Shown here in pieces: positions 1,119 through 30,960 of a stretch of DNA of 32,296 nucleotides. Numbering within the stretch: position 1 is the stretch's first letter; the number at the start of each line of letters is the position of its first letter. Source of the DNA: Candidatus Eiseniibacteriota bacterium (GTDB lineage: Bacteria; Eisenbacteria; RBG-16-71-46; CAIMUX01); the NCBI GenBank assembly GCA_029569475.1, contig JAKQSZ010000028.1:1-32296 (forward strand), given 5' to 3'. The position numbers and the translations under genes were made by a program. The notes under the pieces were generated by a model, which was not told where the DNA came from, did not search any database, and saw only the letters and a program-made list of their open reading frames with translations.

Positions 1119-1190
1119 CTGGAACAAAACACGTTACGATGTGGAGGCGGCGGGAATCGAACCCGCGTCCGAAAGAAGCTCAACAAGGAT
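1119..1190. other. Candidate attachment site (att) at the ssrA 3' end
   Basis: The interval between the integrase stop codon and the T-arm/acceptor end of tmRNA is where ssrA-targeting integrases recombine. The tmRNA 3' acceptor strand and T-loop (1142-1190) are intact, as expected when the element restores the gene end. The second copy of the repeat would lie outside the window, so the exact core cannot be defined here. This is an inference from position. Confidence 0.35.
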
Positions 1191-1486
1191 ATCTACATGC
1201 TTGTCCGGTCGTTTGATCTCGTCCCTCAAGACCCCGGCCGGCAGGGTTCAAGAAGGACCAGCCCTGAAGTTCTCGTCAGCCGCGTCGGGCGCTTGGCCGA
1301 CCAGCCCACCGTAACAGCGTCCTCCTACGACCCGGCAGGCGCAATCGCAGGGGACGTCGCCGTTAGTTAGGCGGCGAGAGCCAACTCAGTGTCGGCAGTT
1401 GTGTTTTTGCCCGGTGATTAACGAGGTCCTGGCGCCTCGGCATGCAATCCCTGCCTCCCCTCCCCCGTCGAATCCAATTCGCCCCC
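1142..1486 (-). ncRNA. ssrA: tmRNA (ssrA)
   Basis: Transfer-messenger RNA that rescues stalled ribosomes together with SmpB. On the minus strand the 5' end reads GGGGGCGAAUUGGAUUCGAC, with the diagnostic UGGAUUCGAC just after the acceptor strand. The 3' end has a tRNA-like T arm (GGUUCGAUUCC) and the strand CGCCUCC, which pairs over 7 bp with the 5' GGGGGCG (one G-U). The discriminator is A at 1142 and CCA is not encoded. Length is 345 nt, normal for a one-piece tmRNA. An internal tag frame ends in ALAA-stop. The integrase gene abuts the 3' end. smpB is at 8511-8984. Confidence 0.95.
1367..1411 (-). other. tmRNA proteolysis tag reading frame
   Basis: Read from a GGC resume codon (1409-1411) to TAA (1367-1369), the frame gives GKNTTADTELALAA. 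With the charged alanine the tag would be A-GKNTTADTELALAA. The ELALAA ending fits the degron recognised by ClpXP-type proteases in other bacteria. The resume codon is chosen by analogy with other tags; the stop and the C-terminal residues are unambiguous. Confidence 0.85.
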
Positions 1487-11250: not shown

Positions 11251-13593
11251 ATGAGAAGCGACGCAGTGTTTGCACCCTGCCTGGAAGCCCGAAAGATGCC
11301 GGGCTTCGTGTCAAGGTCTGTGTCCCGAGGCGCCTGCTGGCTGACTTGTCTGGTCACCCTGGCCGGCCCGGCCTCGGCCTTCACCGTGCAACTCGAGGTC
11401 CGGGACGAGTTCGGCCAGATCACCCCGGCGCGCGTGTCGGCGCGCGATCACTCCGGGCGTTTCTTCCCAGCCGGGCCCGACACTTTCTACCTGAGCCATC
11501 GCGAGTGGCCTTGGATGGGGGAGTACTTCTATCCGATCGACCGTGTAACCATGCCCATGGCGGCGGGCAATGCCACCTTCCTGGTCAGCAAGGGGTTCGA
11601 GTACAAACCGATCCGGGCCCAGGTCAACATCGACCGGGACATGACATTGATCTTCAGCCTGTCCCGGCGCACGGACATCCGGAATGAGGGCTGGTACAGC
11701 GGCGACACCCACGTCCACTCCAACCATCATCCAAGCGAATTCACGATCACCCCCGAGCACCTGCTGAAGATGGCCCAGGCCGAGGGCTTGAACATCTGCT
11801 GGACGCTGGACAACGAACACCGCTTTACCGGAGCCCCGCATCCCTCGAGCACCCCGAATGAGATCATCTATTACACGGTGGAGTATCGCAACCAGGCCTA
11901 CGGCCATGCGGAGATGCTCGGGCTGAAGAGCATCACCAGCACAGGTTGTTGCACGCCTCCCGCCCAGGCCTTCCCGCTCCTCTCCGACTTCCACGACACC
12001 TGGAATCCGGGCTACGGGGAGGCGTTTCCGCTGGCGCATCCGTACACCGGCGCCGACTTCCTCGACGACGAGGGGGGCTATCCCGCATGGGGCCTCGCCC
12101 GCGAGATCCCGATCCAGGTCACGCGCGGCAAGATGGATGCGTTCGACATAGCTTCCTACGGGAACGAATCAGAACTGGCCTTGGAGTGGTGGTACAACAT
12201 CCTCAATCTCGGCTACAACATCCCGCCCTCAGCCGGCACCGATTGCGCCTTCAACGTCTACTGGGTCCGCCCCCCCGGCGGCTGGAGGGTGTACGTACGG
12301 GAGGAGGGCGGTCCCCACAACGCCGAACGCTGGGTCGAGGCGCTCAAGGCCGGGCGCACCTTCGTGACCAACTTCCCTCTCATCCCCCGATTCACCGTCA
12401 ACGGCGCCGAAGCAGGCTCCACCCTCGAGTTCCCCGACTCCACAACCACCGTCGAGGTGCACTTCCAGGTCGAATCCGCCTTGCCGGTGCCCAGGGCGGA
12501 ACTGGTTCGTAACGGCGTCGTCGAGCGGACCTTCTCCTTGAACCCCGGGCTGAACGGAACGAGCGCGGAGTTCGTCACCACGGTGGAGTTGCACGAGCCC
12601 TCCTGGCTGGCCTTGCGGGTCAGCGGCCACACCGACATGCGGATGGCTATCTCCGACACGCTCTTCGCCCATACCGGCGCCGTCATGGTAAAGCTCGCCG
12701 GGAAGGGCTGCTCCCATACCTACGATGCCGGGGTGATGTGCGACATGGCCGATTCGCTCGAGATGTTCGTCCAGAACCGCGGTAACTGGACCAGCGAGGG
12801 CAACCGGCTGTACGTCCTCAGCCGGATCGCCGGCGCGCATGACAGCCTGGCCCGGCACTTCCACCTGCCACCCGGACCTTGCTCGCTGCTGGCGCCGGCG
12901 GACCGCGACACGGTCTGGCCGAACGATCCGGATCCCTTCGTCTGGACGGCGGCGGTGGATCCCGAGGTAGGCGACCGGGTCAGCTACCGGGTTCACCTGT
13001 CGCCGGACAGCACTTTCAGCACCTTCTTCGCCTCGCCCCCGCTGTGGACCACCGAGTTCCGCCTGATGCTCCTTCCCTACGGAGCCGGACGGACTTACTA
13101 CTGGCGGGTGGTCAGCACCGACCGCGGCAAGCATGAGGGGTTGTGTGAACCGGCCTGGTTCAGCTTCTGGGTACCCCCGTCGGGAGGCCTGGCCGACGGC
13201 CTGCCGGTGGACGGAGAGATCAGAGGCCCGGAGGACGGCGGTGGCGCCTCGGCTGAAGGGGACCATGGCGCCGGCGCCCACGGATCGGTCCTTGTCTGGC
13301 CCAACCCGGCAACCGGGCCGGTAAGCCTCGGTTGGTCCCGTCCCGATGCGCAGGTCGGTCGGTTCGAGATCTTTGACTCCTCGGGTCGACTGGTGCGCCT
13401 GCTCTTTACCGATACCGCGCCCCCAGCGGACGGAAGGGGAAGCCCGCCCCTGGCGGTTCGCCAGGTCGGCTGGGACCGCCTGGACAACCACGGGCGCCGC
13501 GCCGGCCCCGGAATGTACTGGTCGCGGTACGTCACCTCCTCCCCGGCCGGCGTCATCCGGTCGCCCGCCACCGGCTTCATCCTGCTGCAATAG
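11251..13593 (+). CDS. Secreted CehA/McbA-family PHP metallohydrolase with FlgD-like C-terminus
   Basis: 780 residues from ATG 11251, chosen for its GGGGGGCGG RBS. A signal peptide (ACWLTCLVTLAGPASA, cleavage before FTVQ) is followed by a beta-rich domain (to about 140). The PHP-type domain starts with GWYSGDTHVHSNHH, the metal-binding HxH signature, and continues with ICWTLDNEHRF, FPLAHPY, MDAFDIASYGNES and PPSAGTDCAFN (to about 400). Beta-sandwich regions follow, one fibronectin-like (SYRVHLSPDSTFS...YYWRVVSTDRG). The last 90 residues (VLVWPNPATGPVSL...FEIFDSSGRLVRLL...GPGMYWSRY) resemble a FlgD/T9SS-type C-terminal domain. CehA relatives hydrolyse carbamates and other esters, but most members are uncharacterised and the substrate here is unknown. 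Probably exported to the surface. Confidence 0.85.
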   Translation: MRSDAVFAPCLEARKMPGFVSRSVSRGACWLTCLVTLAGPASAFTVQLEVRDEFGQITPARVSARDHSGRFFPAGPDTFYLSHREWPWMGEYFYPIDRVTMPMAAGNATFLVSKGFEYKPIRAQVNIDRDMTLIFSLSRRTDIRNEGWYSGDTHVHSNHHPSEFTITPEHLLKMAQAEGLNICWTLDNEHRFTGAPHPSSTPNEIIYYTVEYRNQAYGHAEMLGLKSITSTGCCTPPAQAFPLLSDFHDTWNPGYGEAFPLAHPYTGADFLDDEGGYPAWGLAREIPIQVTRGKMDAFDIASYGNESELALEWWYNILNLGYNIPPSAGTDCAFNVYWVRPPGGWRVYVREEGGPHNAERWVEALKAGRTFVTNFPLIPRFTVNGAEAGSTLEFPDSTTTVEVHFQVESALPVPRAELVRNGVVERTFSLNPGLNGTSAEFVTTVELHEPSWLALRVSGHTDMRMAISDTLFAHTGAVMVKLAGKGCSHTYDAGVMCDMADSLEMFVQNRGNWTSEGNRLYVLSRIAGAHDSLARHFHLPPGPCSLLAPADRDTVWPNDPDPFVWTAAVDPEVGDRVSYRVHLSPDSTFSTFFASPPLWTTEFRLMLLPYGAGRTYYWRVVSTDRGKHEGLCEPAWFSFWVPPSGGLADGLPVDGEIRGPEDGGGASAEGDHGAGAHGSVLVWPNPATGPVSLGWSRPDAQVGRFEIFDSSGRLVRLLFTDTAPPADGRGSPPLAVRQVGWDRLDNHGRRAGPGMYWSRYVTSSPAGVIRSPATGFILLQ

Positions 13594-13649
13594 ATCGCGG
13601 CACGGATCCGCGCGAGCGACAAACTCGAAGCTGGGCCTGCACTTTCACC

Positions 13650-13678
13650 TTGCGCACGTCGCTGCGCTTTTGTACGCT
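13650..13678 (+). promoter_or_regulatory. Promoter-like sequence before the mini-ORF/structured RNA
   Basis: TTGCGC (13650-13655), 17 bp spacer, TACGCT (13673-13678). Only half the positions match consensus, but the spacing is ideal and the predicted start (about 13685) lies just before the long Shine-Dalgarno sequence. Confidence 0.4.
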
Positions 13679-13709
13679 GCGGGTACACAAGAAAGGAGGT
13701 GGTCCATAT

Positions 13710-13745
13710 ATGCAAAATATGACCTGTGAGGTGCCTGAACGCTAG
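13710..13745 (+). CDS. 11-residue mini-ORF behind an extended Shine-Dalgarno sequence
   Basis: ATG CAA AAT ATG ACC... to TAG, product MQNMTCEVPER. Upstream, AGAAAGGAGGTGGTCC (13690-13705) is complementary over 16 nt to a typical 16S rRNA 3' end (GGAUCACCUCCUUUCU) with one G-U pair. That is far longer than any other RBS in this window. The ATG is 10 nt after GGAGG, a workable spacing. The peptide is unfamiliar. It may be translated, or the site may serve to hold a ribosome; the sequence cannot tell which. Confidence 0.4.
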   Translation: MQNMTCEVPER

Positions 13746-13823
13746 GCGGCCTGGCCGCGAGTTGATTTTTGCAGCGCAAGCTGCCCGCAGGCCGGCCGCC
13801 GGCGGAATCAAAACAGGTAGCCG

Positions 13824-13898
13824 AACCCAGGGATCCCCGAACTCGTCATTCGGGGCCGGTCTCGCAAGAGACCGGAAGGATCCCTGGGTTTCTCTTTT
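13824..13898 (+). terminator. Branched rho-independent-type terminator
   Basis: A perfect 13-bp GC-rich helix (13824-13836 with 13878-13890) is followed at once by TTTCTCTTTT. The loop is not simple but holds two further hairpins. It would end a plus-strand transcript of the mini-ORF unit and possibly read-through from the metallohydrolase gene. Confidence 0.6.
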
Positions 13899-13951
13899 GA
13901 GGATCCCTCTTCAAGGATCCCTGGGGTAAGGATCCCTGGGGTTTCTCTTTT
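13877..13951. repeat. Iterated AGGATCCCT motif and duplicated terminator tail
   Basis: AGGATCCCT occurs at 13877, 13900, 13914 and 13929. The first and last copies are both followed by GGG(G) and the same TTTCTCTTTT tail, so the 3' arm of the terminator helix has been duplicated. The copies stop 7 bp before the radC stop codon. Confidence 0.8.
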
Positions 13952-13958
13952 CTGCCGG

Positions 13959-14711
13959 TCAGCGGTGACGAACCGCCCCGTCACCATGCATGGGCATCAG
14001 GCCCGCCTCCCGGAAGGAGAAGGGGGCGCCTCCTCCCAGAATGATATGGTCGAGCACTTCGATGCCGGTCAGATCTCCGACGCGGCACAGACGCTGGGTG
14101 ATCTCCAGGTCGTCCTCGCTGGGGGTCGCGTCGCCGCTCGGGTGGTTGTGGATCAGGATCATCGAAGCGGCCGCGGCCAGGATCGCCGGGCGGAAGACCT
14201 CGCGCGGGTGCACGATGCTGGCCGCGAGGGAGCCGACGGAGATCAACTCGATGGCGAGGGGCATATGACGCGTGTTGAGCATCGCGATGAGGAAGTGCTC
14301 CTTCTTCGCGCGGGAGTACTGCTGGACGAGCGGGAGCAGGTCCTGAGGCGTGCGGATCGGTCGCTCGGTTCCGCCGATCCTGCCAAAGACGCGCCGGCCG
14401 ACCTCGAAGGCGGCCAGGATCTGGCAGGCCCGCGCCGACCCCAGTCCGCGGACGCGCCGCAGGTCCCGTGAGTTCGACTGCGCGAGCGATTCCAGCGGGC
14501 CGTCCTTGAGCAGGGATTCGGCCAACGCCCCGACCGGCGTGCCGTGACACCCCGTCCCCAGAATGGCGGCGAGAAGCTCACGATCCGAGAGGTGCTCGAC
14601 TCCGTGCTCCTGGATCTGCTCTCGCGGTCCACGACCCTCGCGCACTCCGATGCCGACGCGGTCATACCGAGGCGTGGCTCGTTGACGTACATTGCTCCCT
14701 GCTGCCGGCAC
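13959..14711 (-). CDS. radC: RadC-family (UPF0758) JAB/MPN-domain protein
   Basis: About 250 residues. An N-terminal helix-hairpin-helix-like part (EHGVEHLSDRELLAAILGTG, then LRRVRGLGSARACQILAAFEVGRR) is followed by the RadC JAB domain with KKEHFLIAMLNTRHMPLAIELISVGSL, HPREVFRPAI and the metal-site motif LIHNHPSGDATPSEDDLEIT. The historical link to DNA repair is not well supported, so the true function of the family is open. The frame is open further upstream. I chose GTG 14711 because GGGAGG lies six bases before it, the same arrangement seen before the nifS GTG; ATG 14738 or GTG 14645 are alternatives. The 264 bp between ftsY and this start show nothing else. Confidence 0.9.
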   Translation of the reverse strand: MPAAGSNVRQRATPRYDRVGIGVREGRGPREQIQEHGVEHLSDRELLAAILGTGCHGTPVGALAESLLKDGPLESLAQSNSRDLRRVRGLGSARACQILAAFEVGRRVFGRIGGTERPIRTPQDLLPLVQQYSRAKKEHFLIAMLNTRHMPLAIELISVGSLAASIVHPREVFRPAILAAAASMILIHNHPSGDATPSEDDLEITQRLCRVGDLTGIEVLDHIILGGGAPFSFREAGLMPMHGDGAVRHR

Positions 14712-30632: not shown

Positions 30633-30960
30633 GGATCCTCCAGGAGCCTGGGATCCTGGGATCCTGGGATGCTGAGATCCTTGAGTCCCGGGGAATCCCG
30701 GGGATTCCTGCAGGACCCTGGGATCCTGAGATCCTGGGGGATCCTGGGATTCCAGGGGATCCAGGGGATCCAGGGGATCCCAGGGGATCCAGGGGATCCC
30801 AGGGGATCCTGGGGATCCTGGGGATCCTGGGGATCCTGGGGATCCTGGGGACCCAGGGGATCCTGGGGATCCTGGGGGCCCAGGGGATCCTGGGGACCCA
30901 GGGGGGATCCTGGACCCCAGTGGATCCTGGGGACCCAGGGGCATCTGGGAATCCTGGGGC
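30633..30960. repeat. GGATCC-centred minisatellite, mostly 9-bp units
   Basis: About 20 GGATCC hexamers in 330 bp. The core (about 30741-30850) shows GGGGATCCA units on the left and GGGGATCCT units on the right. The right side includes five uninterrupted 9-bp copies. It begins 42 bp after the Ycf48-like gene. All frames on both strands read simple triplet-like peptides, including GSP collagen-like on the minus strand, as expected from a 9-bp period. I treat it as non-coding. Confidence 0.9.

Follow-up and report, generated by a model that had tools for sequence, protein, structure and literature searches.

A structured RNA of the RF02471 family, very likely with a translated mini-ORF next to a segment antisense to the 16S rRNA tail

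The subject of this work is an RNA encoded on the plus strand of a 32,296-nucleotide (nt) contig (JAKQSZ010000028.1) of a Candidatus Eiseniibacteriota bacterium; this whole stretch of DNA is called the window below. Comparison of sequences indicates that the RNA is very likely a structured member of the Rfam family RF02471 (Ms_IGR-5) carrying a translated small open reading frame (mini-ORF). An initial annotation had proposed a possibly undescribed RNA here. It is not undescribed, because its RF02471 score exceeds the Rfam cut-off; in Rfam release 15 the family is described as an actinobacterial small RNA (sRNA). What is new is the spread of RF02471 beyond Actinobacteria, the conserved mini-ORF, a helix (P1) and a pseudoknot (PK). 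In the open-access literature searched we found neither a description of a mini-ORF or 16S complementarity in RF02471 nor a text match to the core sequences and peptides of the RNA.

Relatives came from a pattern scan of GTDB contigs with AAGGAGGTGGTCCN{10,40}TGTGAGGT, which gave at least 120 loci; among the matches listed most were from Actinobacteria, the other groups being Rokuibacteriota, Zixibacteria, Nitrospirota, Binatota, Acidobacteria, Deltaproteobacteria and Palleronia. A covariance model, R1, was built from 32 sequences (alignment A1), namely the window plus 31 loci of the scan; A2 denotes an alignment fitted to the model. In genome tallies made with strict filters, and including the centre genomes already known to carry the RNA, R1 matched 71/79 genomes in the phylum of a Rokuibacteriota metagenome-assembled genome (MAG), 76/198 Actinomycetota genomes, 47/132 genomes of the Zixibacteria phylum, 24/149 Acidobacteriota genomes, 3/118 genomes in the phylum of a Deltaproteobacteria MAG, 2/249 Pseudomonadota genomes and 1/118 Nitrospirota genomes, where the sole match was the centre genome. 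Two further tallies (2/79 and 2/59 genomes) largely overlap the Deltaproteobacteria-MAG phylum set. The RF02471 model itself was over its cut-off in non-actinobacterial loci (L103, L042 and L100, among 18 loci scanned), and it found 9 of the 13 genomes of loci from this analysis (E <= 0.001; six over the cut-off) and 0/14 controls. PMC8079986 lists the Streptomyces lividans copy of the family as transcribed by RNA-seq, and PMC10454040 has a Mycobacterium smegmatis sRNA overlapping IGR-5. The parts of the RNA, in window positions, are as follows.

13685-13897, plus strand: RF02471 (Ms_IGR-5) match from Rfam, model positions 1-184 of 184, 54.6 bits (gathering cut-off 45).
13650-13678, plus strand: weak promoter-like boxes TTGCGC-17 nt-TACGCT, seen by eye; 5' end of the RNA likely at about 13685.
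13690-13705, plus strand: antisense of the 16S ribosomal RNA (rRNA) 3' tail, AGAAAGGAGGUGGUCC, an over-long Shine-Dalgarno (SD) sequence; 16-bp duplex, relatives.
13701-13724, plus strand: possible hairpin P0, in which 13701-13704 and 13706-13709 would pair with 13717-13720 and 13721-13724, leaving the start codon at the loop; minimum free energy (MFE) fold, comparative support weak.
13710-13745, plus strand: mini-ORF MQNMTCEVPER, stop UAG; stop position kept across aligned rows.
13719-13723, plus strand: 5' strand of PK, AUGAC, partner 13845-13849; permutation score.
13728-13733, plus strand: internal GAGGUG, mini-ORF codons 7-8, a second complement of the anti-SD; alignment A2.
13730-13737, plus strand: 5' strand of P1, GGUGCCUG, partner 13814-13822; covariation.
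13740-13751, plus strand: 5' strand of helix P2, containing the stop codon, partner 13794-13804; covariation, MFE.
13771-13784, plus strand: hairpin GCAGC-GCAA-GCUGC that caps P2, not conserved; sequence, MFE, comparison.
13805-13813, plus strand: strand at the P2/P1 junction, AAUCCC-like in the family; alignment A1.
13814-13822, plus strand: 3' strand of P1, CAGGUAGCC; covariation.
13823-13891, plus strand: branched terminator domain P3, with hairpins P3a (13837-13853) and P3b (13856-13875); MFE.
13845-13849, plus strand: 3' strand of PK, GUCAU, the P3a loop plus the last stem base; permutation tests, MFE.
13889-13898, plus strand: U-rich terminator tail UUUCUCUUUU; sequence, Rfam match.

The evidence that the mini-ORF is translated is strong, and consists of a reading frame that is conserved together with a start and a stop. 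Among the matches listed plus the window, the stop lies exactly three codons past the residues CEV (in the frame TGT-GAG-GT) in 119 of 121 sequences, both exceptions being from Palleronia. The pattern set had been chosen on TGTGAGGT and the frame test was therefore repeated on model hits; GAG GTG, three further codons and a stop were found in 81 of 83 model-found rows, the stop being TAG in 65, TGA in 11 and TAA in 5. In a set of 151 usable unique rows, where the GAGGTG copy preceding the stop was used if a row held several, the distance between GAG and the stop is exactly five codons in 150, the predicted peptide is 9-19 residues long, and an in-frame ATG, GTG or TTG follows the antisense segment in 145 (TTG 68, GTG 43, ATG 34). 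Openness of the frame from start to GAG was dropped as a test: frame +1 is also open in 136 of the 151 rows, because GTG often directly precedes AGG, and only the fixed stop distance was therefore used. In two acidobacterial loci (L161 and L162) the mini-ORF contains a second, earlier in-frame GAGGTG, which looks like a duplication of the segment.

One explanation for such a frame is that the peptide itself acts, as an arrest peptide or a signal of about 12 residues ending in EVxxx, with the RNA fold only tuning its translation. Glu-Val is indeed conserved at a fixed distance from the stop, but the rest of the peptide varies, and so does the Cys that often precedes Glu-Val (in the 81 rows this codon is TGT in 34, CGT in 24, AGT in 5, ATG in 5, CTG in 4 and others in the remainder), and the spelling GAG GTG is identical in 82 of 84 A2 rows, the exceptions being the GAGGTC of Palleronia and one truncated row. 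Identical spelling points to the nucleotides rather than the peptide, and we consider an active peptide quite unlikely. The idea that a conserved cysteine codon serves as a cysteine sensor was rejected on the same codon counts, the model-based rows having CGT, AGT, ATG and others in its place.

Members of the family carry a segment of 13-16 nt antisense to the 3' tail of 16S rRNA, followed by the mini-ORF. In the window 13690-13705 pairs without a gap with GGAUCACCUCCUUUCU (16 bp, -29.8 kcal/mol). Exactly this tail, with GGCU ahead of it, was present in 6 of 18 RNA-bearing genomes; in three of the 18 the tail search hit only the antisense strand of the RNA locus itself, at one mismatch, and in nine the search gave no match. 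The 13-nt core was compared across 152 rows: positions 10, 12 and 13 are pairable in 151, 152 and 145 rows, respectively, and the remaining positions in all. Furthermore, in 1.23 Mb of sequence, made up of loci preselected for the mini-ORF arrangement, 199 of 220 GGAGGTG[AG]TC sites were followed by such a mini-ORF.

Covariation among relatives is present in two helices, P1 (GGUGGCUG with CAGUCACC and variants) and P2 (the stop-codon strand with CUGGCG-like strands). Both helices lie over the 3' half of the mini-ORF. In A1, 85.1% of 511 cells are paired, as compared to 73.6% after shuffling and 26-49% when strands are slid; there are 50 double-change cells (18.9 in shuffles), and 11 of 16 pairs show double changes, a level that 15 of 500 shuffles also reach. 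The ends of the A1 rows came from a duplex-energy search for the P1 3' strand, which was misplaced in several rows (six were reset by hand, five of them in A1). Since these ends were chosen partly by pairing, the A1 counts lean towards P1, and we therefore repeated the tests on rows outside A1 with ends set by the model. In 79 such rows the strands' own partners scored 10.97 for P1 and 13.09 for P2, versus 7.83 (standard deviation, sd, 0.31) and 9.41 (sd 0.30) for permuted partners, and P1 went beyond all 300 within-group permutations in both Actinobacteria and Acidobacteria. In A2, an alignment that is itself fitted to the model, the paired share of 1312 cells is 88.0% (70.8% shuffled, 24-45% slid), double-change cells number 241 as against 75.7 in shuffles, and double changes occur in 13 pairs, which none of 500 shuffles reaches.

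PK was first spotted by eye and afterwards tested by permutation. It joins the bases just 5' of GUGAG to the loop of the first terminator hairpin, and its pairs differ between groups: AUGAC/GUCAU in the window, GGAC/GUCC in Actinobacteria, GGUGAU/AUCACC in Binatota, GGUGA/UCACC in relatives from Rokuibacteriota, CUACGGCA/UGCUGUAG in Nitrospirota and GACC/GGUC in some Acidobacteria. Over 115 rows the score with own partners was 11.34 versus 9.12 for permuted partners (sd 0.24; maximum of 200 permutations, 9.81), a control contact gave 6.54 versus 6.53, and a test on 139 rows agrees. Within Actinobacteria PK reached 12.38, beyond the maximum of 300 permutations (11.96). This pseudoknot, which like the 16S-tail antisense segment is absent from the initial annotation, is the tertiary contact that has support. 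The annotation had instead suggested that the two GCAA loops could be tertiary contacts; conserved contacts of this kind were rejected given the rarity of GNRA loops, which predicted folds of the 115 rows show in only 3 (terminator domain) and 6 (P1-P2 domain). The pseudoknot and P0 overlap in ORF bases in 69 of the 81 rows where both reach 4 bp.

These results also bear on whether the RNA is an ordinary trans-acting sRNA that base-pairs with targets through a loop or the C-rich 3' strand of P1, GGAGGUG acting only as a seed or protection site and the ORF being incidental. Such an RNA would be free-standing with its own terminator, as this one is, and Rfam files the family as an sRNA. However, the frame and place of the stop are fixed in 150 of 151 rows although the stretch before GAG varies in length, and the best loop suits an internal pseudoknot. 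We regard this explanation as unlikely.

The genomic setting points away from control of an adjacent gene. Of 20 neighbor proteins from 12 loci, 19 had Pfam hits, all to different families; the neighborhood is common to mycobacteria and close kin, and the largest neighbor clusters (61 and 60 loci, among the matches listed) are all actinobacterial. There is no neighbor common between phyla. At 17 loci the downstream ORF, as called by a crude ORF caller, was convergent in 10 and co-directional in 7, and in the window the 3' neighbor is a convergent gene on the minus strand encoding RadC (PF04002, E 1.3e-38). Since neighbors differ between phyla and genes are convergent, the RNA is best read as free-standing, which bears out the initial annotation's view of a structured RNA of about 210 nt followed by a convergent radC and not a leader of the next gene; a riboswitch or leader of radC was rejected on these grounds. 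In a more general form, the RNA might be a leader or attenuator of a downstream gene in which the mini-ORF serves as a translation sensor. A mini-ORF followed by a terminator does resemble an attenuator, and the co-directional loci (7/17 in the crude ORF calls) would suit one, but the convergent genes and the absence of a common family among the scanned neighbors argue against it, and we hold it to be highly improbable.

The chance is just as slim that the RNA is a toxic minigene. Lambda bar minigenes drain tRNA by peptidyl-tRNA drop-off, and the present ORF, very short and preceded by a very strong SD, recalls them. On the other hand, R1 gave two matches in one genome and a single match in all others, the last codon varies, and phage records had no match with one mycobacterial copy as query. 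The same query found one match among plasmid records, in Nocardia, and with the exact pattern no viral contig was found; a mobile or phage element was rejected on this basis.

Reasoning from the geometry of the RNA and from what is generally known of initiation, we tentatively favor, with somewhat less than even confidence, the idea that it is a free-standing structured mini-mRNA that engages ribosomes and traps or senses 30S subunits. As the 5' end is antisense to the single-stranded 16S tail, 30S subunits would be expected to dock strongly on the mini-ORF, which is about a dozen codons long. The SD is unusually long and ends near the start codon, which may keep a docked 30S in place instead of letting it go, and the ORF ahead, folded into the RNA's own structure, would add to the block: P1 and P2 would cover its 3' half and stop, and PK would tie the preceding codons to the terminator loop. 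The 3' part of the 16S-antisense segment can pair with the PK bases as well (P0), so that docking of a 30S subunit would free these bases for PK; with P0 and PK in competition for them, 30S binding may drive a switch between the two. Finally, the internal GAGGUG sits 6 nt ahead of the last sense codon. With a ribosome at the stop it would lie six bases from the P-site codon, a distance near that of a normal SD, and by pairing with the anti-SD it could anchor the terminating ribosome again. The most likely job of such an RNA would be to hold ribosomes or to report the supply of 30S subunits, the output being the shape of the RNA. If this is true, ribosome supply is tied to cell physiology in many bacteria by an RNA that has gone unrecognized. 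The question is directly testable in laboratory strains of Streptomyces and Caulobacter.

Several observations weigh against this proposal or the evidence beneath it. With regard to the mini-ORF, six of 151 rows have no in-frame ATG, GTG or TTG, TTG is the commonest start (68/145), one locus (L210) lacks the fixed stop, and in 109 of 145 rows GGAGG and the start codon are 10-12 nt apart, a longer spacing than usual. Changes in the 5' segment are mostly transitions, which preserve G-U pairing for free; because transitions dominate and the search had already set the inner bases, the data are consistent with pairing to 16S rRNA and are not proof of it. Part of the invariance at AAGGAGGTGGTCC and TGTGAGGT comes from selection, the R1 training rows having been picked for exact copies of both, and under the strict filters R1 had no match in 122 of 198 Actinomycetota genomes. 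As for the helices: (i) one P2 pair in A1 is unpaired in 19 of 32 rows; (ii) mismatched strands also beat their permutations (10.05 versus 9.05 and 7.65 versus 6.47), and kinship therefore explains part of the P1 and P2 scores; (iii) within groups, P2 went beyond all 300 permutations only in Actinobacteria; (iv) PK did not pass the within-group maximum in Acidobacteria (8.63 versus 9.41), in relatives from Rokuibacteriota (12.60 versus 13.13) or in Zixibacteria (8.20 versus 8.80); and (v) P0 scored barely above permutation (11.18 versus 10.71, maximum 11.11) and may be a by-product of PK.

The remaining structure is largely as first annotated: both GCAA hairpins, the mini-ORF, the branched terminator and a perfect 13-bp closing helix (13824-13836 with 13878-13890) running into the U-rich tail are all present. 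P3b is CCGGUCUC-GCAA-GAGACCGG. The MFE of the 267-nt stretch is -129 kcal/mol versus -98.1 (sd 5.8) for shuffles (z = -5.4), and 0/200 shuffles equal it; the terminator scan was limited to loops of 3-8 and the branched terminator is unlisted there. The promoter-like sequence can be seen by eye but is weak, and a sigma-70 consensus scan of 13560-13980 found no promoter; in some relatives clearer -35/-10-like boxes are visible by eye at the matching position. The AAUCCC-like junction strand is well conserved in relatives, yet unpaired in the model. Copies of the terminator tail, GGATCCCTGGG, start at 13878, 13915 and 13930, the last again followed by a TTTCTCTTTT stretch, and a perfect 15-base tandem repeat (13913-13942) lies within further terminator-tail copies at 13899-13951. 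A long degenerate array of GGGATCCTGGGGATCC-like units at 30650-30959 resembles the sequence of the terminator helix and may be a repeat type of this genome. Elsewhere in the window Rfam places a tmRNA (1139-1486, minus strand) and five tRNAs.

RNAs of similar layout occur in Proteobacteria. A scan of 378 Pseudomonadota genomes with GAAAGGAGGTGRTCCAGTGTC, one mismatch allowed, found 42 genomes with one match each, and the reversed control found none. An ORF of 14-31 codons begins in each of the 33 proteobacterial copies read (30 scan loci plus L048, L065 and L142), its first two codons being fixed by the search pattern; peptide types include VS.TKRCHLAGIAR, VSHCHQP... and VSR..LERGVGTVRR. Rfam family RF01867 (CC2171, a Caulobacter sRNA) coincides with 5 of 20 proteobacterial loci scanned. 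By eye, some of these copies (L214-L243, L048, L065, L142) hold an internal, anti-SD-like ACCTCC or CACCTC, which could mask their own SD. One anatomy, a long 16S-tail antisense segment leading straight into a conserved mini-ORF, is common to two RNA families that are listed as sRNAs from separate lineages, and this anatomy together with the spread over several phyla suggests that an RNA engaging or sensing ribosomes has been overlooked. It is possible, albeit doubtful, that RF02471, RF01867 and unlisted relatives are branches of one ancient class in at least six phyla, binding the free 16S 3' tail and built around a translated mini-ORF, a cell-wide ribosome sensor or reservoir that would flip between an SD-masked P0 fold and a 30S-bound PK fold. 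The likeness of the proteobacterial design to RF02471 may reflect either common ancestry or convergence.

Compared with RF02471 as it stands in Rfam, the RNA of the window matches over the full length of the model and has the same 5' segment, GUGAGGU strand, hairpin and terminal stem-loop with a U-rich end. The Rfam entry is actinobacterial, whereas matches were found here in other phyla, and its consensus structure is without P1; we add this helix, the conserved mini-ORF and the pseudoknot. RF01867 shares the 16S-tail antisense segment, a start codon directly after it, a mini-ORF, a terminator and one copy per genome. It differs in its peptides, R1 reaches only 2/249 Pseudomonadota genomes, and the window has no match to RF01867 at the gathering cut-off, the family being absent from the seven Rfam matches in the window; the two are likened by outer layout only. 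There is also precedent among mRNAs for the elements that we propose. In ribosome-entrapment pseudoknots such as that of the rpsO leader, a ribosome is held by an SD plus a downstream pseudoknot, and prfB has an internal SD close to a stop codon. The RNA described here resembles the first in its SD followed by a pseudoknot and the second in its internal SD near the stop. Those elements, however, lie within mRNAs of protein genes, whereas this RNA has no shared downstream gene.
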